A stretch of DNA of 46,815 bases from Firmicutes bacterium HGW-Firmicutes-11 (GTDB lineage: Bacteria; Bacillota; Clostridia; Peptostreptococcales; Anaerovoracaceae), in the NCBI GenBank assembly GCA_002840285.1, contig PHAE01000016.1:1-46815 (forward strand), given 5' to 3'. A model generated the notes under the pieces. That model worked only from the letters and a program-made list of their open reading frames with translations, made no database searches and was not told the origin of the DNA. The number at the start of each line of letters is the position of its first letter. The first letter of the stretch is position 1. The position numbers and the translations under genes were made by a program. Of the stretch, positions 12,112 to 46,040 are shown piece by piece.

Positions 12112-13991
12112 GGTATCGCAAGCTGTTCCGTTCCATCGTCCTCGCCGGTGATGGTCGCTCCGGCGCAGAAGGCAAAGCCGCTCTTTCCCTGATTTTTTAC
12201 CTTATACATGGCGGTATCTGCCGCGTGATACAACTCGTCGAAGGTTTTTCCATGCTCCGGATACAGTCCGATGCCAATGCTGATGCCGATCTCCAGTTGT
12301 GACTGAATAGTTTTCAACAGATGCATCGTCTTTGACGCTACAAAGGCTTCTCCGGGAACGTCCTGTATGAATATCAGAAACTCGTCGCCGCCGATCCTTC
12401 CGATCAGATCTGAAGTCCGCAACGATTCTCTGACGATGGCTACGATGTGGCGGATGATCTGGTCACCGTACAAATGGCCCCTTTGATCGTTTAACAACTT
12501 GAAATCGTCAATGTCCAGCACTAGTACAGCATGCGATCTGTCATAGTCTTGCTCCAGGTGCCTACCAACCAAGTACTCCGTCGCCCCCTTGTTGAAGGCT
12601 CCGCTTCCCGGATCGATCCTTGATTTCGCTTGAAGACTTTCCAGTCTTTTCTTTTCTTCGTCGATATCCCGCATACGACCGATGATACGGATCACATTGC
12701 CCTTCTCATCCCGTAGCAAAAGCTCTTCAAAGCGGAACCATCGGTATTGTCCCTCTCGATCGAGAAGGCGATATTCACCATACCGCTTGTCCTCATCGGT
12801 GGGGTAGGCGATGTAGGCGTCAAGAAAGCGAGCCTTGTCCTCCTGGTGGATCAGCCCGTTTCGCGCAAAAGCCTTAGGGAAATCTTCTTTGGGTGGCGGA
12901 TACCCAATGATTTTTTTGAATCCGTTGGGAAAGATCACATCCGAGGTTTCTGTGTTCAACTCATAAATGATGTTCTCCGACAAGGAGGAAAGCAGGCGGA
13001 ACCGCTGTTCGCTGATCGCCAGTACTCTTGCCCGTTCTTCTGCTTCCTTACGCCTCTCTGCCTGCTGGATCCCAATGTAGCTGGCGAGAAGAAGCATGAC
13101 CACAAGACTGCCCAGACTGGATAAGATGAGAACGTTCCAATGTTCTTTTTGATCTTTCAAGAATACTTCACGGGGCGTCGTCGTGACCAGCATCCAATCG
13201 TTTCCGATCACAGGCGTATAGTAAGCGTGAAAAATGGATTCGCCCATCCGTATGGTGAAACTACCGCTTCCACCTCCCGCAAGCTCGGAAAGGAGTGTGT
13301 CCCGGTCCGGTCCTTCGATCAGCTCCACATTGGCAAGTCCCTCCATCACCGTTGTAGTGTCAAAGGCTTGCACCGGTGCGCCGATCGTCAATGCAACCCG
13401 TCCATCTGAGGTCAACACGTTGCTGAAGCCGTCGGCATACCAGGAGGGAACCCGAAGGGAGGCTTCCAGCAAGCCGGCTTCCATCACTGCATAAAGGCGT
13501 CCGCCTTTGCTTTCTTCGCTCAAGATCGGCATGGTGAAGAGGATCCATCTGCGACCCCCCTCGATGTAAGGTATCGTGCTGTAAGATGCATCTCCCGTCC
13601 AGTCTCCCATCAGAAGAAAGGCTTCGGTTTCGCTTGGAACATCTCCGACTATTGTACGCACGCCGTATTTGTCGCTCAACGAGATCCCTGTGAATCGCCC
13701 GATCCGCTTCACTTCCAGCATCAATCGTCTTAACTTGGGGTCAGAATGAAAGTCATCCAGGCTACGGGCATAACCGACCAAGGGAGCCAATAGCATGCTT
13801 TGATCCTTGATCGCTTCAGAAACCGTTGCAGAAAGAAAGCTGGCTTTTTTTTGCAGCTCCTCTTCGGCATGGGTCTGGACGTGTTGTTGCATATAGTTGG
13901 TGAACGAAAAAAGCGACAGCGACAAGATCAAAAATGCGCTGATAAGCAGCCCGTATTTCAGATGTGCCTTAGACAAGATCCGGTTTCGCAT
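12102..13991 (-). CDS. Membrane-bound diguanylate cyclase with Cache and PAS domains
   Basis: The protein synthesises c-di-GMP from two GTP. In order it has an N-terminal helix (about 10-33), an extracytoplasmic Cache-type sensor domain (about 35-285), a second helix (about 287-308), a short signalling helix, a PAS domain (about 335-455, ending YRWFRFEEL...IGRMRDID), and a GGDEF domain (about 460-615). The active site is an intact GGDEF preceded five residues upstream by RTSD, the RxxD inhibitory site, so product feedback is expected. The start ATG at 13991 has GAGGGAAGG. It lies 54 nt after phoR on the same strand, with a palindrome between them. It ends TGA. Confidence 0.92.
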   Translation of the reverse strand: MRNRILSKAHLKYGLLISAFLILSLSLFSFTNYMQQHVQTHAEEELQKKASFLSATVSEAIKDQSMLLAPLVGYARSLDDFHSDPKLRRLMLEVKRIGRFTGISLSDKYGVRTIVGDVPSETEAFLLMGDWTGDASYSTIPYIEGGRRWILFTMPILSEESKGGRLYAVMEAGLLEASLRVPSWYADGFSNVLTSDGRVALTIGAPVQAFDTTTVMEGLANVELIEGPDRDTLLSELAGGGSGSFTIRMGESIFHAYYTPVIGNDWMLVTTTPREVFLKDQKEHWNVLILSSLGSLVVMLLLASYIGIQQAERRKEAEERARVLAISEQRFRLLSSLSENIIYELNTETSDVIFPNGFKKIIGYPPPKEDFPKAFARNGLIHQEDKARFLDAYIAYPTDEDKRYGEYRLLDREGQYRWFRFEELLLRDEKGNVIRIIGRMRDIDEEKKRLESLQAKSRIDPGSGAFNKGATEYLVGRHLEQDYDRSHAVLVLDIDDFKLLNDQRGHLYGDQIIRHIVAIVRESLRTSDLIGRIGGDEFLIFIQDVPGEAFVASKTMHLLKTIQSQLEIGISIGIGLYPEHGKTFDELYHAADTAMYKVKNQGKSGFAFCAGATITGEDDGTEQLAIPQI

Positions 13992-29306: not shown

Positions 29307-29840
29307 ATGGAAACAACCAAATCGACTGCCATGGATTTTTCCAAAGAGACGCTAAAGGCGCTTGACGATTACATCGAGAGTTTGGACGACAAACAGGGTC
29401 TTTTGATCCACATTCTGCACAAAGCCCAGGAACTTTTCGGCTATTTGCCTCAGGATCTGCAACTTTACATCGCAAGAAAGTTGGACATTCCTGCTGCGAA
29501 GGTCTTCGGTGTCGTGAGCTTCTATTCCTTTTTCGCCCAAGAAAAAAGAGGCAAGCACAATGTAAGTATTTGTATGGGGACTGCCTGCTTCGTGCAGGGC
29601 GCGGAACGTGTTTACGATGCGCTTCGCAGCGCCCTCGGCGTGGAGGCCGGAGGTACTTCAGAGGATGGTCTGTTCACCCTGAACGCGGTACGTTGCATAG
29701 GAGCCTGCGGCCTTGCGCCGGTTGCATTGATCGACGACAAGGTCTTTGGCCATTTGTCTGAAGAAAAGATCAAGGATATCATAAAGGAGTACAGGGAGGG
29801 GATGCAAGATGAAGATCAATACGCTGAGTCAGCTGTCTAA
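29307..29840 (+). CDS. hydC: NAD-linked [FeFe] hydrogenase subunit C (NuoE-like)
   Basis: The 177-aa protein is a thioredoxin-fold [2Fe-2S] subunit like NuoE. The four cluster cysteines are C89 and C94 (CMGTACFVQGA), and C130 and C134 (RCIGACGLAP). An N-terminal helical region (about 10-65) with LLIHILHKAQELFGYLP is typical. It passes electrons between the HydB flavin site and HydA clusters. The gene overlaps hydB by 32 bp, so translation is probably coupled. GAGGAG abuts the ATG at 29307, with AAGGA further upstream. It ends TAA. Confidence 0.94.
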   Translation: METTKSTAMDFSKETLKALDDYIESLDDKQGLLIHILHKAQELFGYLPQDLQLYIARKLDIPAAKVFGVVSFYSFFAQEKRGKHNVSICMGTACFVQGAERVYDALRSALGVEAGGTSEDGLFTLNAVRCIGACGLAPVALIDDKVFGHLSEEKIKDIIKEYREGMQDEDQYAESAV

Positions 29841-31677
29841 GCTGAGAGAAGACGGCGCTGCGGTCTGTCAGCTGCGGGAATCCGGTATAGGAGGAGGCTC
29901 CACTGCCGAGATCCTTGTCGGAATGGCCACATGCGGCGTTGCCGCCGGAGGAAAGCAGACCTTTGCTGCTCTAGAACGCGCATTAAGAAATCGTGGATTG
30001 TCGCATGTGCGACTGGTCAAAGTCGGCTGCATCGGTTCCTGTTACTGCGAGCCGACGATCCAGGTGAATATCCCCGGCCAGGAGCCGGTCTTTTACGGTA
30101 ATGTCGACGAAGACGCTGCAATAGCGATCGTCGATAGCCACCTTCTGAAGGGAAACGTATTGGAAAGCAACCGCCTGCAGATCGGGTACGAAAAAGCTGG
30201 TCTAAACTCCAAAGGGCAAAAAAAACAACAGAGGATCGCATTGCGGAACTGCGGTTCTGTCGATCCGGAAAATATAATGGACTATATCGCCTTTCGAGGG
30301 TACGAGGCGCTGGGGAAGGTATTGGCTGAAGGAAACCCGGAAGCCGTGGTCAATTCCATCAAGGCCTCGGGACTTCGAGGCAGGGGAGGTGGGGGATTTT
30401 CTACCGGCTCCAAATGGCAGGCCACCGCACAGCAGCCTACAGGCGAGAAATATATCATATGTAACGCCGACGAAGGCGATCCCGGCGCTTTTATGGACCG
30501 CTCCATTTTGGAGGGTGATCCCCACAGTGTTTTGGAAGCCCTTGCCATCGGGGGATACGCCACCGGCGCAAACAAAGGGATCATCTACATCCGAGCCGAA
30601 TACCCACTGGCAATCGAGCGACTGAAAATAGCAATTGTCCAAGCCGAAGAACTGGGACTTCTGGGCAAGAATATCCTTGGAAGCGGGTTTGACTTCACTG
30701 TCGAGTTGCGGCTGGGCGCCGGCGCTTTTGTCTGCGGAGAGGAAACCGCGCTGATCCACTCTGTCGAAGGTGGCAGAGGAGAGCCGACGAAAAAGCCGCC
30801 CTTTCCTTCCATTTCCGGCTACTTGAAGAAGCCGACGACGGTGAACAACGTCGAGACTCTGGCAAACATTCCTCCCATCATCCTGAATGGCGCCGGTTGG
30901 TTTTCCGGAATCGGAACCGAAAAGTCAAAGGGGACCAAGGTGTTCGCTCTGGTCGGCAAGATCAACAACGTCGGTCTGGTTGAAGTTCCGATGGGTACGA
31001 CACTACGCGAGATCGTCTATGAGATCGGCGGTGGTATACGAAACGACCGGGATTTCCGCGCCGTACAAACCGGAGGCCCTTCCGGCGGAGTGATCACAAA
31101 AGCGGATCTGGATACGCCCATCGACTACGAAAGCTTGAAGGAAATCGGATCGATGATGGGTTCCGGCGGCATGATCGTCATGGACGACAGCGACTGTATG
31201 GTCAACATCGCCAAATTCTACCTGGGCTTCACCAGAGATGAATCCTGTGGCAAATGCACACCCTGCCGCATCGGCACCAAGCGAATGCACGAGATACTCG
31301 AACGCATCACCAATGGAGAAGGGGTTCCGGAGGATCTGGTCAAGTTGGAACGGCTGGGCAATACCATCAAGATCTCGGCGCTCTGTGGTCTGGGTCAGAC
31401 TGCGCCCAATCCCGTTCTCAGCACATTGAAGTATTTTCAGGACGAGTACAAGGCCCACGTCATCGATCATAAATGCAGTACTGGAAGTTGCAAAGGACTT
31501 TTGCGCTATCGCATCTCCGAAGAAGCCTGCACCGGCTGTCGCGCTTGTGTCAAGGTGTGTCCCGTCAACTGCATCCACCTGGCGAACAAGCCTGCCTACC
31601 GTATCGACTCAGCAGTCTGCACCCGCTGCGGCGCTTGCCTCGCTGCCTGCAAATTCGATGCTGTCATCGTAGAATAG
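29809..31677 (+). CDS. hydB: NAD-linked [FeFe] hydrogenase subunit B (NuoF-like flavoprotein)
   Basis: This subunit holds the FMN and NAD(H) site. The 622-aa protein has an N-terminal thioredoxin-like [2Fe-2S] domain (VKVGCIGSCYCEP) and the NuoF core with GRGGGGFSTGSKW, NADEGDPGAFMDR and GAGAFVCGEETALI. Next is a [4Fe-4S] site (ESCGKCTPCRIGT with SALCGLGQ), and a C-terminal pair of [4Fe-4S] ferredoxin motifs (CTGCRACVKVCP and CTRCGACLAAC). This is the architecture of the electron-bifurcating HydABC of acetogens and Thermotoga. GGAGGGG lies 7 nt before the ATG. It ends TAG followed by TGA two codons later. Confidence 0.95.
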   Translation: MKINTLSQLSKLREDGAAVCQLRESGIGGGSTAEILVGMATCGVAAGGKQTFAALERALRNRGLSHVRLVKVGCIGSCYCEPTIQVNIPGQEPVFYGNVDEDAAIAIVDSHLLKGNVLESNRLQIGYEKAGLNSKGQKKQQRIALRNCGSVDPENIMDYIAFRGYEALGKVLAEGNPEAVVNSIKASGLRGRGGGGFSTGSKWQATAQQPTGEKYIICNADEGDPGAFMDRSILEGDPHSVLEALAIGGYATGANKGIIYIRAEYPLAIERLKIAIVQAEELGLLGKNILGSGFDFTVELRLGAGAFVCGEETALIHSVEGGRGEPTKKPPFPSISGYLKKPTTVNNVETLANIPPIILNGAGWFSGIGTEKSKGTKVFALVGKINNVGLVEVPMGTTLREIVYEIGGGIRNDRDFRAVQTGGPSGGVITKADLDTPIDYESLKEIGSMMGSGGMIVMDDSDCMVNIAKFYLGFTRDESCGKCTPCRIGTKRMHEILERITNGEGVPEDLVKLERLGNTIKISALCGLGQTAPNPVLSTLKYFQDEYKAHVIDHKCSTGSCKGLLRYRISEEACTGCRACVKVCPVNCIHLANKPAYRIDSAVCTRCGACLAACKFDAVIVE

Positions 31678-31687
31678 GAGAATTGAC

Positions 31688-33430
31688 ATGGAAACCGTGA
31701 AAATCACGATCAACGATATTGAGTTGCGTGTGCCGAAAGGGAGAACGATTCTTGAGGCAGCCAAAATGATCGATATTCAGATTCCCACACTCTGCTATCT
31801 TAATATGGAAGGGTTCCATATTGCAAACCAGACCTCCTCCTGTCGTGTCTGTCTCGTGGAGGTCGTCGGCCGCGCTGCGCTGGTCCCTTCCTGTTCAGAG
31901 AAAGTTACGGAAGGTATGGTGATCCGCACCGACTCGGCGAAAGCGGTGGCGGCCCGAAGGATGAGCGTCGAGCTTCTGCTCTCCAACCACCCGAAGGAAT
32001 GTCTGACCTGTCAGAAAAACCTGGAATGTGAACTCCAGTCATTGGCGCAACGTCTGGGGATCACTGACATTGGCTTCGAGGGTGAAATGATGAATTATGA
32101 GATCGATCATTCCTCCCTTTCTCTGGTAAAAAACCCAAACAAATGCATCATGTGCCGACGCTGCGAAACCATGTGCAACGAGGTCCAGACCTGCGGTATT
32201 CTGTCTGCGATCTCCCGTGGTTTTGATGCCTATGTCGGACCTGCCTTTCATCTGGACATGGTCGACACTTCCTGTACCTTCTGCGGCCAATGTGTGGCCG
32301 TATGTCCCACCGGTGCGTTGACTGAGGTGAACAACGTCAGGGATGTGGTCGACGCCTTGAACGATCCAAGCAAGCATGTCGTCGCGCAAGTCGCACCTGC
32401 GATTCGGGTCGCCATTGGCGAGATGTTCGACATGGATCCGGGAACCATCACCACCGGCCAGTTGGCAACATCCCTGCGGCGTCTTGGCTTTGACGGCGTC
32501 TTCGACACAGATTTCGCCGCCGACCTGACGATCCTTGAGGAAGCATCCGAATTGGTCCACCGCATAAAGCACGGTGGACGCCTGCCGATCCTTACCAGTT
32601 GCTGCCCGGCTTGGGTGCGCTTCTTTGAGCACCAGTTTCCGGATCTGCTGGACGTTCCCTCGACTTGCAAGTCACCGCAGATGATGATGGGCACCATCGT
32701 CAAAACCTATTATGCGGAAAAACTGAACATCGATCCAAAAGACCTGGTCGTCGTTTCCATCATGCCCTGTCTTGCGAAAAAGGCCGAAGCTGCTCGTATG
32801 GAGATGGATGTCGACAGCATGCATAACGTTGATCTGGTGCTTTCCACCCGGGAGTTCGGAGCCATGTTGAAAGAAGCCGGCACAAATTTTGCCCACCTTC
32901 CTTCCAGTGATTTCGATTCCATCCTTGGCGAAAGCACCGGCGCTGCTGTCATTTTCGGCACCACAGGCGGCGTGATCGAGGCCGCTGTCAGGACTGCCTA
33001 TGAGTGGCTCACCGGAGAAGTGCTGAAAAATGTCAACTTTGAACAGCTTCGGGGTCTGGAAGGCATTCGGAGCGCAACCGTAAAGATCGGAGACATGGAT
33101 CTGAACATCGGAATCGCACATGAACTGGGCAATGCCCGAAAACTACTGGAAGAGATCCGCCAGGGCAAATCCCATTACCACGCCATCGAGATCATGGCCT
33201 GTCCCGGCGGTTGCATCGGCGGTGGCGGTCAGCCCTACCATCACGGCGATATGGAGATCATACGGAAACGGCAGGAAGCGATCTATCGTGAAGATGCGGG
33301 AAAAACCAAGCGCAAGTCCCATGAAAATCAAGAAGTTTTAAAGCTTTACGAGGAGTATCTCGGTGAACCCTATGGTGAGATGGCACACAAGCTCCTGCAC
33401 ACCAAATATACTGCCAAGGATCGGATTTGA
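31688..33430 (+). CDS. hydA: [FeFe] hydrogenase catalytic subunit A
   Basis: HydA makes or consumes H2. The 580-aa protein has an N-terminal [2Fe-2S] domain (CYLNMEG...SSCRVC...VPSC), a His-ligated [4Fe-4S] motif (HPKECLTCQKNLEC), two [4Fe-4S] sites (CIMCRRCETMC and CTFCGQCVAVCP), and the H-cluster motifs L1 TSCCPAW (about 304), L2 MPCLAKKAE (about 358) and L3 MACPGGCIGGGGQP (about 502). A small-subunit-like tail follows. With HydC and HydB it should couple NADH and reduced ferredoxin to H2 in the cytoplasm. Maturases HydEFG are not in the window. It ends TGA. Confidence 0.96.
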   Translation: METVKITINDIELRVPKGRTILEAAKMIDIQIPTLCYLNMEGFHIANQTSSCRVCLVEVVGRAALVPSCSEKVTEGMVIRTDSAKAVAARRMSVELLLSNHPKECLTCQKNLECELQSLAQRLGITDIGFEGEMMNYEIDHSSLSLVKNPNKCIMCRRCETMCNEVQTCGILSAISRGFDAYVGPAFHLDMVDTSCTFCGQCVAVCPTGALTEVNNVRDVVDALNDPSKHVVAQVAPAIRVAIGEMFDMDPGTITTGQLATSLRRLGFDGVFDTDFAADLTILEEASELVHRIKHGGRLPILTSCCPAWVRFFEHQFPDLLDVPSTCKSPQMMMGTIVKTYYAEKLNIDPKDLVVVSIMPCLAKKAEAARMEMDVDSMHNVDLVLSTREFGAMLKEAGTNFAHLPSSDFDSILGESTGAAVIFGTTGGVIEAAVRTAYEWLTGEVLKNVNFEQLRGLEGIRSATVKIGDMDLNIGIAHELGNARKLLEEIRQGKSHYHAIEIMACPGGCIGGGGQPYHHGDMEIIRKRQEAIYREDAGKTKRKSHENQEVLKLYEEYLGEPYGEMAHKLLHTKYTAKDRI

Positions 33431-36493: not shown

Positions 36494-37492
36494 CTATTTG
36501 TGTTTCACGACGACTCGACCGACGAGTCGTCCTTTTAATATCAGATCGATTTTTTCACTGACCTGTTCCAGGCTGATCACTTCGATGCTCTTTTCCAGAT
36601 CCTGTAGTTCCCAACTTCCAGCCAGTAAATTCCAGACATCCAGGCGCCGCTCCATCGGACATTGCACCGAATCGATGCCCAAAAGAGAGACTCCACGCAG
36701 GATGAACGGGAAGACCGTCAAACTTAATTCGGCCGATGCTGCGTTGCCGCAAGATGTGACCGTTCCCCCGTACTTCGTTGACTTGATCGCAGACGCTAGT
36801 ATGTTGCCGCCCACCGTATCGATGACTCCTGCCCATCGCTCTTTCAAGAGAGCTTTGCCGGACTGGTCGTCGAGTGTGTCCCGCAACGCAATGGCAGAAG
36901 CGCCGATCTTCTTCAGCATTTCCTCCGTCTCCGGCTTTCCCGTACCTGCGACTACCGTGTATCCCAGTTTGCTAAGAAAACCGACTGCAATACTGCCCAC
37001 GCCTCCGGTGGCTCCTGTCACGAGGATCTCTCCATCCTCTGGCCGAACTCCGTTTTCGATCAGTCGCTTGACCGAGAGAGCTGCAGTGAACCCCGCGGTT
37101 CCGTACATCATGCTTTTCTGTTCTGTCAACCCTTCCGGCAGTTTCGCGACCCACTGCGCCGGTACTCTGATGTACTCGCCCAATCCCCCGGCGGTGTTCA
37201 TTCCCAGATCGTATCCGGTCACCAGCACTCGGTCGCCGACCTGAAACTGTTCATCCACGCTTTCTTCTACAACACCGGCGGCGTCGATCCCGGGGGTGTG
37301 AGGATATTGTCTCGTGACTCCCTTGACCCCGGTGGCGGACAATGCATCCTTGTAGTTCAAAGAGGAGTAGCTTACCTTGATCAGCACATCCCCAGGCGGC
37401 AGATCATCGATCTCCCGGTCCAAAATTTCTTGAGAGTAGCGCTTTTCAGCATCCTCCGTGACCCAATACGCTCTAAATTTCTTGTTCTTCAT
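36494..37492 (-). CDS. YhdH/AcuI-type zinc-less quinone oxidoreductase (acryloyl-CoA reductase family)
   Basis: The 332-aa medium-chain dehydrogenase lacks the catalytic zinc cysteines and matches YhdH/YhfP. Family signatures are SYSSLNYKDALSATG near the N-terminus, HTPGIDAAGVVEES, and the NADPH-binding VTGATGGVGSIAVGFLSKLGY. Characterised relatives (AcuI) reduce acryloyl-CoA to propionyl-CoA with NADPH; others have unknown substrates. It follows mtbB by 22 nt with GGAG upstream of its ATG, so the two are likely co-transcribed, yet no pathway link is known. Its TAG stop abuts the TAG stop of the convergent PAS gene. Confidence 0.9.
   Translation of the reverse strand: MKNKKFRAYWVTEDAEKRYSQEILDREIDDLPPGDVLIKVSYSSLNYKDALSATGVKGVTRQYPHTPGIDAAGVVEESVDEQFQVGDRVLVTGYDLGMNTAGGLGEYIRVPAQWVAKLPEGLTEQKSMMYGTAGFTAALSVKRLIENGVRPEDGEILVTGATGGVGSIAVGFLSKLGYTVVAGTGKPETEEMLKKIGASAIALRDTLDDQSGKALLKERWAGVIDTVGGNILASAIKSTKYGGTVTSCGNAASAELSLTVFPFILRGVSLLGIDSVQCPMERRLDVWNLLAGSWELQDLEKSIEVISLEQVSEKIDLILKGRLVGRVVVKHK
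36509..36536 (+). terminator. Terminator hairpin for the multi-PAS gene
   Basis: GACGACTCG (36509-36517) and CGAGTCGTC (36523-36531) form a perfect 9-bp stem with a 5-nt loop, followed by CTTTT. It lies 15 nt after the plus-strand TAG, within the last codons of the convergent YhdH-like gene. The T-run is short. Confidence 0.55.
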
Positions 37493-37514: not shown

Positions 37515-38897
37515 TTAGATTCCTGTTTTCTTTTTGAATTTCTCTACACAGTTGATCTCAAGGTCCAATAATCTTGCTATGTTGAATTTTGCTTCGATCC
37601 CTCTGCTTGCCGAACCATATCCCATAAAGATCGAGGAGATGTCCAGGTCCTCCCTGACTTCCCGCATCGTGACTTCATCGGTCAAGTCGCGCAAGCTTAC
37701 TTTTAATTTATCTGCTACATATTTTTTTGCGTCGTCCAGCCTCATGTTTTTCGCCAGCTGCATCCTTGCAACCAGGTCCCCTGAGGTTCTTACGCCGCCC
37801 ATACCTGACGCCTGACTGTGTACGATCGCCATTCCCGAGGGATCACCGTAGCCCACCTACAACCCGTCGAGCTTGCCGATTTCCGCCATAGCGGTGGAAG
37901 CTCTCGAAACGCAGTCGATGGGTGGCGTGATCTGCATCGGTACGCCACCGACGCCCATTCCCACATTTGCATGCACCGGGATCGTCGATACAGCTGCAGC
38001 GTATTTACACATCGTCAGCGCTCGTGCCAGGTTCCAGGGGAAACTTCTGCTTGAATTGGTGTTGACGACCACGCCTGCGACATTTGCGCCAGCTTCCGCC
38101 AGCATTCTGCACTGTTTGTGGGGATACATGCCGGCAAGCCGTTCTCCTTTGTATTCCAAAGCGCTGTGAAATCCAAGGACGAATTCGCTGGACATCCCGA
38201 CCTCGATGTTCATCCGGGGATATTTGGCTCGGAGTTGCTCCACCGCCCGAAGGCAAGCGTAAAACTCCGCATCCCCTCCTGCAGCGGACGTGTCGAAGTC
38301 CAGGCCATCGGCGCCGGCTTCGTTCATCGCAGCTCCAAGTAGCAGGAGATCATGTTCCAACATAGACGCTGCTTCCATCTGCGCTTCCCGCGCTTCTGTG
38401 ACCATTCCCTTCGGTAGTAGCTCTGCCGCATTCTCGCATGGACCGTCGGGCTTTGTATAAGTTGGCATATTCGGCATCACACCATACAAGAGCGCCGGTG
38501 TTGTGGTGAGCAATGCCTCCGCGACGGCATACTGTTCCTCCGGCAAAATCGTCTTTACCGGCTTGGCGCTGTAATGGACGTAGGCCATTTCCAGCGTGTC
38601 GGCCATCAACGCTCGCTCATAGATCTGAAGAATTTGGACCCGGTCGATCGGGATCCCCAGGCGTGCGAATTTCATTGGCTGGGAATCATACGTCAAAACA
38701 AGTTCATTGCCGCGCTCTACACTGACAAATTTCCTCGGATCGCAGATGATATCCATCAAGTGTTCCGTATCCTCATCGGTCAGCGGTGGACACTTGGCTT
38801 TTTTCACCGCATCTTCGATTCCGGCTTCCACGTCTACTCGGATTTCCGCTGTTGTCATCTCAACAAAGGATCCGTCTCCCATTCTTGTCAGGATCAT
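37515..38897 (-). CDS. mtbB: Dimethylamine:corrinoid methyltransferase with in-frame TAG (pyrrolysine)
   Basis: MtbB moves a methyl group from dimethylamine to a cognate corrinoid protein. The gene reads 346 codons, TAG at 37857-37859, then 113 more codons to TAA, giving 460 residues with pyrrolysine at 347; archaeal MtbB is of similar length with Pyl near 356. The flanks match the family (AEIGKLDGL before and VGYGDPSGM after the TAG), as do MGVGGVPMQITPPIDCVSRAS upstream and a C-terminus ending AKFNIARLLDLEIN. The ATG at 38897 is 7 nt after GGGAGG. No mtbC corrinoid protein or pyl genes are adjacent. Annotation pipelines would split it into 38897-37857 and a downstream fragment. Confidence 0.93.
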
Positions 38898-39015: not shown

Positions 39016-39432
39016 ATGAGTATCAACGAACGTTTCCAGATAGGTCAGACCGCGGAGGACCATGTAATCGTAACGGAGAAGTTGATTTATGAGACGGCGG
39101 ATTTCAGCGGGGACTACAATCCGGTCCACACATCAGAAGATTTCGCCAGAAAAACCAAATTCAAGAGTCGTATCGCACACAGTCTCATCTGCGAAGCCCT
39201 CGTATCGAAACTGATCGGGACCCAACTCCCCGGGGCCGGCGCGGTCTTCATCAACATCAGTTTCGCTTGTCTGAAGCCAGTCTATATCGGCGACGAGATC
39301 AAGGCCATAGGCACGATCAAAGACATCGACGTGGCACGAAGCATCTTAGACATTCAGGTCGCATGCTTTAATGAGCGTGAAGAAGTTGTAGTAGAGAGCC
39401 AGGCGAAAGTACTTTACCTGGACATAGAATAA
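39016..39432 (+). CDS. MaoC-like (R)-specific enoyl-CoA hydratase
   Basis: The 138-aa single hot-dog protein has the hydratase-2 motif: FSGDYNPVHTSEDFARKTKF, with the catalytic Asp and His, followed by IAHSLICEALVS. Relatives (PhaJ, MaoC) hydrate trans-2-enoyl-CoA to (R)-3-hydroxyacyl-CoA. A C-terminal strand region matches the family length of 130-150 aa. GGAGGTGAATCATC precedes the ATG. It is divergent from mtbB and followed by a strong terminator, so it is monocistronic. The physiological substrate is unknown. Confidence 0.9.
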   Translation: MSINERFQIGQTAEDHVIVTEKLIYETADFSGDYNPVHTSEDFARKTKFKSRIAHSLICEALVSKLIGTQLPGAGAVFINISFACLKPVYIGDEIKAIGTIKDIDVARSILDIQVACFNEREEVVVESQAKVLYLDIE

Positions 39433-39435
39433 GGA

Positions 39436-39478
39436 CGGCCCTCCTCCGCTCCGGCGGAGGAGGGCCGCCCTCTTTTTG
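39436..39478 (+). terminator. Strong intrinsic terminator after the MaoC-like gene
   Basis: A 13-bp GC-rich stem (39436-39448 with 39455-39467, core GGCCCTCCTCCG) and a 6-nt loop are followed by TCTTTTTG at 39471. It lies 3 nt after the TAA. Confidence 0.92.
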
Positions 39479-42944: not shown

Positions 42945-44000
42945 TTACTCCTTTCCTTCCTTGAACCATCCTTTTGTATTGTTGGCGATTTTGACCAGCG
43001 TCAGCATGACCGGAACCTCCACTAATACGCCGACCACCGTCACGATCGTCGCTCCTGATTCGAGGCCAAAGACTGAAATGGCAACCGCCACGGCTAGTTC
43101 AAAGAAATTGGATGCGCCGATCATCCCTGCGGGCGCTGCTATGTTATGAGGAAGTTTCCAGATCCTCGCCCAGGTATAGGCAACGAAAAAGATGAAAAAC
43201 GTCTGAATGATCAATGGGATCGCGATCAAAACGATGTTGAAGGGATTGTCCACGATGATCTGCCCCTGGAAGGAAAAGATGATGATCAAAGTCAGAAGCA
43301 GACCCCCGATAGTGACATTGCTGAATTTGGGTATGTAGGTATTTTCAAAATAGTCCAGCCCTCTGTTCTTTGTGATGATCACCCGGGAGAACCATCCGGC
43401 TGTCAGAGGGATGACGACAAATAGTACCACGGAGAGAAACAGCGTCATCCAGGGGACTTTGACGTCACTGATGCCCAGTAGAAATGCCACGATCGGTACG
43501 AAGGCGACCAGGATGATCAAGTCGTTGGTCGCGACTTGTACCAGTGTGTACGCCGGATTTCCCTTGGTCAGATGACTCCAGACGAATACCATAGCCGTGC
43601 ATGGTGCGGCTCCTAGCAATACAGCCCCTGCCAGGTAGTATTTTGCAGTTTCCGCAGGGATCATGTCTTTGAACACGACATAGAAGAAGAAAACTGCGAT
43701 CCCATACATGGTAAATGGTTTGATCAACCAGTTGGTGACCCAGGTAACGATCAATCCCCTTGGGTTTTGGCCGACCTTCTTGATGCTGTGAAAATCCACC
43801 TTGAGCATCATCGGATAGATCATCAGCCAAATCAGGATCGCGACCGGGATCGACACGCTGGCGTATTCGAATTTGCCGAGAAACTTCGGGACACCGGGCA
43901 AATACACGCCGATCAAAACACCAACGATCATGCAAAGTATGACCCACACAGTCAGATACCGTTCGAAAAACCCGATTCCGGACAGCTTTGCTTTGCTCAT
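42945..44000 (-). CDS. acr3: Arsenite efflux permease, ACR3 family
   Basis: The 351-aa membrane protein has about ten helices of the BART superfamily. It extrudes arsenite formed by ArsC. Motifs are FLGKFEYASVSIPVAILIWLMIYPMMLKVDF, the GAAPCTAMVFVWS helix with the essential cysteine, and AAPAGMIGASNFFELAVAVAIS. The ATG at 44000 with AAGGGGG 9 nt upstream is preferred to the longer frame to 44081, which overlaps the DUF2703 gene with charged residues. The order acr3-arsC is common. Name arsB is also used. It ends TAA. Confidence 0.95.
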   Translation of the reverse strand: MSKAKLSGIGFFERYLTVWVILCMIVGVLIGVYLPGVPKFLGKFEYASVSIPVAILIWLMIYPMMLKVDFHSIKKVGQNPRGLIVTWVTNWLIKPFTMYGIAVFFFYVVFKDMIPAETAKYYLAGAVLLGAAPCTAMVFVWSHLTKGNPAYTLVQVATNDLIILVAFVPIVAFLLGISDVKVPWMTLFLSVVLFVVIPLTAGWFSRVIITKNRGLDYFENTYIPKFSNVTIGGLLLTLIIIFSFQGQIIVDNPFNIVLIAIPLIIQTFFIFFVAYTWARIWKLPHNIAAPAGMIGASNFFELAVAVAISVFGLESGATIVTVVGVLVEVPVMLTLVKIANNTKGWFKEGKE

Positions 44001-44016
44001 CCTACCAGTCCCCCTT

Positions 44017-44457
44017 CTAACAACATCCGTTGCAGTTGCAGCCGCAACCAGTGCTTTTCTTCTCTTCTTTCTTCGCATCATCCATGCCCAAAACTCTTAA
44101 CGCTGCCTGTCGTATGGCTTTCGCTGGAACATCCTCATATTCATTTCCTTCAAACTCCACCGTCCGGCAGTAGGTTTCCTTTCCAATCAGATCGGTGCAT
44201 GAACTGCAGAAATTTTCTGCTACTTTGATCTCTAGGATGTCCTCGATGGGAATCCCGTTGAACAGCAGACTGTTGGACTGCTGTACCATGGTCTCATCCA
44301 GTTTCGTGTCAACCAGCACGACTTCGATATCTTGGGGCTGCAACGAACGATTGAGGCGTTTTACTTCATTGGCCAGATTTTCTCCTGTGTCGTAGCAGCG
44401 GTCGCATGTTTCTCCTTCTACATCCAGGTGTTTCCATTCGATCGTCAGTGTTTTCAT
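44017..44457 (-). CDS. DUF2703 family protein with cysteine-rich tail
   Basis: The 146-aa protein starts TLTIEWKHLDVEGETCDRC, a DUF2703 signature with paired Cys (C18, C21). It has a second pair in ENFCSSCTD and ends in a GCGCNCNGCC tail. Family function is not established; it co-occurs with arsenic or metal resistance genes and may bind As(III) or hand it to the permease, by analogy to ArsD. That is inference. It overlaps the thioredoxin-like gene as ATGA and ends in TAG right after the last Cys. Confidence 0.85.
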   Translation of the reverse strand: MKTLTIEWKHLDVEGETCDRCYDTGENLANEVKRLNRSLQPQDIEVVLVDTKLDETMVQQSNSLLFNGIPIEDILEIKVAENFCSSCTDLIGKETYCRTVEFEGNEYEDVPAKAIRQAALRVLGMDDAKKEEKKSTGCGCNCNGCC

Positions 44458-44699
44458 TTCGCTTCACTCCTCTTTATCAATTCAATGATTGCGTCTGTCT
44501 TAAGAACTTTTCCAAAGGAGACAACTTTACCGTCGATCACCAAACCTGGTGTCGACATGATCCCATACTTCGCGATCTGTGCATAGTCGGTCACCTTCTC
44601 GAAATCCGCTTCCAGCCCCAGTGTGTCGATTGCCGCTTTCGTGTTTGCTTCCAGCGTCACACAGTTTTTGCATCCCGGTCCCAATACTTTGATGTCCAT
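44454..44699 (-). CDS. Thioredoxin-like small redox protein (TM0996/MTH895 family)
   Basis: The 81-aa protein has a thioredoxin fold with GPGCKNC near the N-terminus (C10, C13) and the cis-Pro segment MSTPGLVIDGK. Such proteins are encoded beside DUF318 permeases and ars genes; it may reduce ArsC or deliver electrons to bound arsenic, but the role is unproven. The ATG at 44699 has AGGAGG 6 nt upstream; a longer frame to 44762 lacks a signal. It overlaps the DUF2703 gene as ATGA. It ends TGA. Confidence 0.9.
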   Translation of the reverse strand: MDIKVLGPGCKNCVTLEANTKAAIDTLGLEADFEKVTDYAQIAKYGIMSTPGLVIDGKVVSFGKVLKTDAIIELIKRSEAK

Positions 44700-44721
44700 T
44701 TCTTTCCTCCTATCTGTGAAC

Positions 44722-45726
44722 TTATACGAACAAATAGCCGATAGCGTTGAATGTATATCCAATGATGATGATCCCGATGGTCACAACACTAAAGAACAGT
44801 GCCAGTAGCTTCGTCTTGACGACTTTTTTCAGCATGATCATCGAAGGCAGCGAGAGCGCCGTCACTCCCATCATGAAGGACAATGCGGTGCCAAGCCCAA
44901 CGCCTTTAAGGACCAGAGCTTCTGCAATGGGTAGCGTTCCGAAAATATCTGCGTACATGGGAACGCCGATGATCGTGGCGACCAATACGGAATACCAGTT
45001 GTCTTGACCGAGAATAGCAGAGATGAATTCTTCCGGGATCCAGTTGTGGATCGCAGCGCCGATACCCACACCGATCAGAATATACAGCCAGACCCGATGG
45101 ATGATTTCTCCGACCTGCCCGCGGGCGATGACGATTCGGTCTTTCACAGTCAGTTCATCCTGCTCGGCCTCAGTCAGAACGTTCCCATATACAAATGGCT
45201 CCACATACTTTTCCATGTTCGCCTTGCTGATCACCGTACCGCCGAGGACAGCAAGAACAAGGCCGACCACCACATAGGCAATGGCGATCTTCCAGTTGAA
45301 TATGCTGGCCAGCAAAATGATCGAAGCCAGATCCACCAGTGGTGATGAAATCAGGAATGAAAAAGTGACTCCAATAGGCAGACCTGCGCTTGTGAATCCA
45401 ATAAAGAGCGGGATCGAAGAGCAGGAGCAGAAGGGCGTTATGGTTCCCAGCAAGGCGCCGAGAATATTCGCCGACACCCCATTGTATCGCCCCAGGATCC
45501 TTCGGGTCCGTTCCGGCGGAAAGAAGCTTTGGATGTAGGAAATCACAAAAATCAAAACGGAAAGCAATATGAAGATTTTGATCACGTCGTAGATGAAAAA
45601 GTGTAGGCTTCCGCCGACCCGTCCGTCCATAGACAATCCAAAAACGGATTCCACCAGCCAGAGGACTGCATTGTACAGCCACTCCATCTTCAACAGTTGG
45701 TCATTGAGCCATCCAAAAACGATCAT
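44722..45726 (-). CDS. Permease of the DUF318/ArsP type
   Basis: The 334-aa membrane protein has about eight helices and the family motif TPFCSCSSIPLFIGFTSAGLPIG, with the repeated-like VPMYADIFGTLPIAEALV in the second half. Related ArsP proteins export trivalent organoarsenicals, and others are linked to metal export. In this operon an arsenic role is likely but the substrate is unknown. The ATG at 45726 overlaps the arsR stop (TGATG) and is 7 nt from AAGGAGG; the TTG three bases upstream is less likely. It ends TAA. Confidence 0.9.
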   Translation of the reverse strand: MIVFGWLNDQLLKMEWLYNAVLWLVESVFGLSMDGRVGGSLHFFIYDVIKIFILLSVLIFVISYIQSFFPPERTRRILGRYNGVSANILGALLGTITPFCSCSSIPLFIGFTSAGLPIGVTFSFLISSPLVDLASIILLASIFNWKIAIAYVVVGLVLAVLGGTVISKANMEKYVEPFVYGNVLTEAEQDELTVKDRIVIARGQVGEIIHRVWLYILIGVGIGAAIHNWIPEEFISAILGQDNWYSVLVATIIGVPMYADIFGTLPIAEALVLKGVGLGTALSFMMGVTALSLPSMIMLKKVVKTKLLALFFSVVTIGIIIIGYTFNAIGYLFV

Positions 45727-46040
45727 CAACCGGCCTCCTTGCAGTCACAAACTTCGATTCCCTCGGGAATGCCTTCAGCGATCCGATTCAAAAAACCGAT
45801 CATCTCCGCCAGCGTTTCCTGCCGAACGGTGTATCTCATCCAAATGCCGTCACGCCGGGCGGAAACCAATCCGCAGTCGCACAGGATCTTCATGTGATAG
45901 GACAAGGTGGGCTGGGTGACTGAGAATTCATCCAGCAGTTTACAGGCGCAGCGTTCTCCTTCCGACAGCATGTCGAATATCTTCACTCTGGTCTCATCCC
46001 CCAGCGCTTTCATGATCATGGCATATGCCTTGTAATCCAT
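45726..46040 (-). CDS. arsR: ArsR family metalloregulator
   Basis: The 104-aa winged-helix repressor has the metal-binding ERCACKLL motif (C31, C33; ELCVC type) and the helix-turn-helix SVTQPTLSYHMKILCDCGLV, with two extra cysteines (C54, C56), and a CDC near the C-terminus. Arsenite binding should release it from the operator at 46062-46097. It is the first gene of the ars operon, overlaps the permease (TGATG), and its ATG follows GGAGG by 6 nt. It ends TGA. Confidence 0.95.
   Translation of the reverse strand: MDYKAYAMIMKALGDETRVKIFDMLSEGERCACKLLDEFSVTQPTLSYHMKILCDCGLVSARRDGIWMRYTVRQETLAEMIGFLNRIAEGIPEGIEVCDCKEAG

Follow-up and report, generated by a model that had tools for sequence, protein, structure and literature searches.

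Whether a bacterial methyltransferase gene interrupted by an in-frame TAG is read through into a single pyrrolysine (Pyl)-containing protein, and which compound such a protein would demethylate, is the question raised by a locus of Firmicutes bacterium HGW-Firmicutes-11 (GCA_002840285.1). The window is the whole stretch of DNA analysed, the entire contig PHAE01000016.1 (C55; 46,815 nt), and belongs to a draft assembly (G000) of 1.93 Mb in 75 contigs that is 95.85% complete. On its minus strand, positions 37515..38897 carry a gene of the mtbB family, the Pyl-type dimethylamine:corrinoid methyltransferase family, starting with an ATG at 38897 and having GGGAGG upstream at 38910-38905. The frame runs for 346 codons, meets a TAG at codon 347 (37857..37859, minus strand), predicted to encode pyrrolysine from its place in the pyrrolysine column of the family, and continues for 113 more conserved codons to a TAA at 37515-37517, giving 460 residues with one TAG read through and zero other internal stops. 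The frame is as the initial annotation had read it, with homology on both sides of the TAG. The mechanical list of open reading frames divides the gene in two, as gene callers would, and standard gene calling breaks Pyl genes such as mtbB into two.

Regarding the continuity of the protein, the read-through translation matches TIGR02368 with 459 bits (cut-off 369) over positions 8-465 of 466 and PF09505 with 601 bits (cut-off 25) over positions 5-463 of 463, and this nearly whole coverage of both profiles indicates that the sequences on either side of the TAG form a single protein. An open frame of 113 codons is expected by chance with a probability of about 4% at the same composition, which is a weak test by itself. 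The relative L015, from the uncultured Firmicutes MAG SRR12377477_bin.4 (CAMJRV010000159.1), shares with the window gene the TAG, the VGYGDPSG motif and 81% identity. Identity is 80% before the TAG and 86% after it, with a pN of 0.12 and a pS of 0.73 before and a pN of 0.08 and a pS of 0.77 after, the pS values lying where synonymous sites are near saturation. As identity to L015 is high and pN is far below pS on both sides, the frame after the TAG is no chance opening, and, as judged from this sequence comparison, it is under protein-level selection.

The TAG had also been claimed to lie at the pyrrolysine site of MtbB, and indeed this column of the family holds TAG in every one of the 59 distinct MtbB sequences compared, those of the window and L015 included. 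Its presence throughout these sequences, and in L015 at the identity given above, makes it extremely improbable that the codon is a sequencing or assembly error, a reading favoured by the draft status of the assembly and nothing else, or that an ordinary residue is inserted there by a near-cognate tRNA, as a cognate tRNA-Pyl is encoded. As for the structure, no relative was found among the PDB sequences at an E-value of 0.001. The AlphaFold model, built with eight sequences, is poor (mean pLDDT 57.8, pTM 0.63, with pLDDT below 50 for residues 345-369), and the 50 Foldseek matches listed for this poor model are all weak, with no methylamine methyltransferase among them.

The initial annotation had supposed that the cell possesses pylT and pylS, and both were found in the same assembly, on contig C67 (region 40000-59000, named L012): a tRNA-Pyl with the anticodon CTA, cognate to TAG (L012 5972-6043, minus strand), and a synthetase split into PylSc (292 bits, cut-off 178) and PylSn (116 bits, cut-off 51). 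PylB (461 bits, cut-off 348) and PylD (190 bits, cut-off 150) lie on the same contig, so that the genome is not devoid of pyl genes and the proposed search for pylBCD succeeded for two of the three, PylC not being found by two profile searches. The order on C67 is an MtaA-like protein with a thioredoxin-like end, a corrinoid protein, MttB, canonical MtbB, a CobW-type protein, an AcsV/RamA-like activase, PylSc, a second corrinoid protein, PylSn, PylD, tRNA-Pyl and PylB, with all cassette genes in one direction and, at the start of the cassette, a divergently oriented PocR/AraC-type regulator. The Pyl-type MttB and the canonical MtbB have one in-frame TAG each. The names MtaA, MtbC and RamA are given here from matches mostly below NCBI's specific cut-offs; one corrinoid protein passes TIGR02370 (222 versus 215 bits), and the two score 226 and 170 bits with the MtbC-specific NF041607 (cut-off 350). 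A second MttB-superfamily gene, with no internal stop, is located on C34 beside an MtgC-like corrinoid protein, and MtmB was sought in this genome and not found. In the same cassette, TAG serves the canonical mtbB both as an internal codon for Pyl and as terminator, and the MtaA-like gene is likewise terminated by TAG, followed by TGA one codon later (L012 11388-12902 and 14996-16354).

Related Firmicutes MAGs carry a similar cassette, pylC being seen in L016, L017, L018 and L020. In the genome of the window, TIGR03909 gave no PylC match at an E-value of 0.001, and a profile made from the PylC of four relatives gave none at 1e-5. Among the 47 genomes of the family Anaerovoracaceae that carry MtbB, the same four-relative profile detects a strong PylC (E at most 1e-30) in 40, PylS being found in 40 and PylD in 38 of the 47; among these 38, the sole genome without a strong PylC is that of the window. 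In the two relatives with the MtbB closest to the canonical copy, L016 and L018, pylC comes directly after pylB (the L016 gene passes TIGR03909 and that of L018 is 73% identical to it), whereas the cassette studied here (L012 3915-6056) lacks pylC and has in its place an unrelated protein, with a hydrophobic start as seen by eye and a weak match to TIGR01620. The distance between pylC and pylS is about 243 kb on one contig in G063, and the two genes are on different contigs in G333, a genome with 9% contamination. Since pylC of relatives can be distant from pylS, an assembly gap is likelier than a true loss.

A cell without PylC would be unable to make pyrrolysine, and the window gene would then be a relic, untranslated past the TAG or unused, as the failure of both profile searches and the absence of a corrinoid gene within 5 kb might suggest. 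This is unlikely, considering the strong purifying selection on both flanks of the TAG relative to L015, the single TAG in a frame with no further stop, the presence of PylB, PylD, PylS and tRNA-Pyl together with three TAG-containing methyltransferase genes, and the missing ~4% of the genome, which could hold a pylC as remote from pylS as in G063 and G333. In two other genomes of a single genus, G334 and G337, PylS and a TAG-containing MtbB are present and PylC and PylD were not found, and ARAGORN detected no tRNA-Pyl on the two contigs L091 (G337:C24) and L092 (G334:C89); in G337, the synthetase genes adjoin pyrH, frr and uppS. These two may be pyrrolysine scavengers, or their assemblies may have gaps.

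Judged from the sequences, the window carries a selected and probably working MtbB-family gene for a Pyl-containing methyltransferase, and its bacterium encodes the apparatus for Pyl translation, a reading held with high confidence. PylSn and PylSc would charge tRNA-Pyl, which would then compete with termination at codon 347, the full-length enzyme being made when pyrrolysine is available. The Pyl residue would bind an N-methyl substrate, whose methyl group would go to a trans-acting corrinoid protein, presumably one of the two encoded on C67 or the MtgC-like protein of C34, from which it would pass onward through the MtaA-like methyltransferase. From the gene content, we infer Pyl incorporation and enzyme activity, as well as the corrinoid partner and this flow of the methyl group.

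Regarding the selectivity of such a reading, TAG ends 27 of 93 sampled frames (about 29%), TAA 28 and TGA 38; these frames have at least 150 codons and were mechanically picked, so a few may not be genes, and the 93 are left from 96 after removal of three, namely the Pyl sites of both MtbB genes and a frame that lies antisense to mttB. According to PMC9723677, UAG accounts for 21% of the stops in Sifarchaeia, a level described there as like that of Pyl-encoding bacteria, and PMC9723677 and PMC3941956 describe TAG as still a frequent stop in Pyl bacteria. A backup second stop as a safeguard was considered and rejected, the median distance to the next stop being 21 codons after TAG, 9.5 after TAA and 11 after TGA. 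As TAG is a common stop and is not guarded by a nearby second one, the selectivity at codon 347 is not accounted for by these means.

A downstream RNA element does not convincingly explain it either. The Rfam family PYLIS_2 matches positions 37760..37859 on the minus strand with 61.8 bits (gathering score 36), and 11 of its 18 pairs can form in the window. Over the 59 sequences, which are related to one another, 64.4% of the 18 pairs form, compared to 62.7% (sd 0.65) after synonymous shuffling, the observed percentage being reached by 0 of 200 shuffles; sliding the partners by 1-3 bases leaves 27-42% pairing. Conservation of the coding sequence thus probably contributes more to this match than RNA structure does, and the pairing offers little for PYLIS as a decoding signal, being hardly above the level forced by the protein.

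The presence of pyrrolysine in a bacterial MtbB is of a known kind, and the TAG itself is no surprise. Pyrrolysine had been called rare in bacteria, a description that does not hold well for the Anaerovoracaceae, where it is not very rare: MtbB occurs in 47 of 349 genomes and 18 of 92 genera, and in 40 of those 47 genomes PylS accompanies it. The MtbB matches listed that span the site have one TAG each, and the four rows without TAG are non-spanning fragments. In 40 relatives, mostly of other genera, no MtbB or PylS above the family cut-offs was found. With a profile of the window clade, the genome of the window was the sole match among 391 genomes drawn evenly from the class, the other 390 giving no MtbB match whatever at an E-value of 1e-10, and the clade was not found in the plasmids and viral contigs searched. 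In PMC10653893, Pyl-type mttB is already reported in Emergencia and a novel genus of Anaerovoracaceae. Pyl in methylamine methyltransferases, as here, is described for Acetohalobium, Bilophila and marine Deltaproteobacteria; the synthetase is likewise split into two genes in Bilophila (PMC7593587), and a dimethylamine methyltransferase with in-frame Pyl is found in marine Deltaproteobacteria (PMC8318568). Compared to those bacterial systems, the present genome differs in that pylC was not found and in having an extra divergent mtbB on another contig.

This extra copy resembles MtbB in its full-length match across the TAG, passing the cut-offs of both TIGR02368 and PF09505, and in having TAG at the Pyl column; unlike a canonical MtbB, it has no adjacent corrinoid gene, shares 50% identity with the canonical MtbB in the C67 cassette and stands on a long separate branch. 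In the tree of the 59 distinct sequences, the window and L015 alone form a clade with support of 100/100 and a branch of 1.1 changes per column. Across the other 57 sequences, 123 columns show a constancy of at least 95%, and 15 of these are changed in both members; the same measure, which in such a comparison is biased towards small clades, gave 6 for a side-clade of nine members. The window copy is thus, by its sequence, a divergent paralogue in a distinct side-clade of MtbB.

It could nevertheless be an ordinary second dimethylamine methyltransferase that keeps the substrate and role of the canonical copy and has merely diverged and moved, a reading that concerns the substrate only and not the reading of Pyl. 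Passing the equivalog cut-off of TIGR02368 and sharing half of its residues with the canonical copy are in keeping with it, as are the lack of a detected BCCT carrier in the genome (none in the one genome searched) and the existence of organisms with several dimethylamine methyltransferase genes, such as Methanosarcina barkeri, where several are reportedly present (Paul et al. 2000). It is at odds with the long and fully supported branch, with the near-constant columns altered in both members of the clade and with the position of the gene, unlinked to mttB, corrinoid or pyl genes. The locus of its close relative L015 also speaks against it, being ordered as BCCT carrier, PucR regulator, mtbB and corrinoid protein, while part of an activase gene is found where the contig ends on one side; in the window, by comparison, mtbB is followed by a YhdH/AcuI-type gene and has no adjoining corrinoid gene. 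On balance, an ordinary second copy is a serious possibility, held with somewhat less than even confidence.

Beyond this pair of sequences, the MtbB of Anaerovoracaceae appears to be split into several side-clades, many of them beside BCCT, sodium-symporter or amino-acid carriers. Several side-clades adjoin genes for carriers of betaines or amino acids, belonging to the BCCT carriers, sodium:solute symporters or amino-acid permeases, often with MttB homologues, either split (Pyl-type by appearance) or unsplit, and some with sigma-54 activators. Of the 59 distinct sequences, 46 entered a comparison of the flanks, and the other 13 were left out for their short flanks (12 canonical and one non-canonical, L047). 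Among the 21 non-canonical loci, 11 have a match to BCCT, SSF or amino-acid-permease proteins within 5 kb, as against none of the 25 canonical loci, a count biased by seeds that were picked from non-canonical loci after looking. A less biased measure, the presence nearby of a protein of at least 300 residues with at least seven hydrophobic segments, gave 15 of 21 versus 7 of 25 (Fisher p 0.007), in loci that are related and in some cases cut by contig ends. The window is counted among those 15 solely through an ACR3 arsenite carrier, unrelated to amines, and thus gives no support to the association. A Pyl protein of 150 codons or more is encoded within 5 kb at 14 of the 25 canonical loci and at 1 of the 21 non-canonical ones.

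From these arrangements we infer that some side-clade enzymes act on substrates imported by the carriers; by analogy with dimethylamine, these may be secondary N-methyl amino acids. A substrate other than dimethylamine is possible for the side-clade enzyme of the window, and it is tentatively proposed that the gene is part of a Pyl enzyme subfamily demethylating another N-methyl compound. If true, the secondary N-methyl substrates handled with the help of pyrrolysine would extend beyond the three methylamines, and a larger share of amine metabolism in bacteria would be linked to the expanded code. A partial search of the literature found none on the substrates of divergent MtbB clades.

In the neighbourhood of the window gene, no match to corrinoid, pyl or tested carrier proteins was found within 5 kb. 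An oxidoreductase of the acrylyl-CoA reductase/YhdH family (36494..37492, minus strand), above the cut-off of TIGR02823 and below that of the AcuI-specific model, follows mtbB on that strand after a gap of 22 bases, ends in TAG and is possibly co-transcribed with it. A MaoC-like domain protein (39016..39432, plus strand) is divergent from mtbB and connected to it by adjacency alone. A dimethylsulfoniopropionate- or beta-alanine-type substrate, to which these two neighbours might point, is no more than a guess, as neither is on the L015 contig by tblastn. Behind the MaoC-like gene, a strong G+C-rich inverted repeat at 39428-39475 is perhaps a terminator, an Rfam microRNA match there being far below the gathering score. 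Elsewhere in the window, a probably false tRNA-Lys was called by ARAGORN at 12883-12975 (plus strand) inside a GGDEF gene of the opposite strand, and an arsenic-resistance cluster at 42945-46040 comprises the ACR3 arsenite carrier, an ArsP-type permease and an ArsR-type regulator. Positions 29809-33430 encode a NuoF-like subunit, whose gene ends in TAG, and a group A6 [FeFe] hydrogenase.
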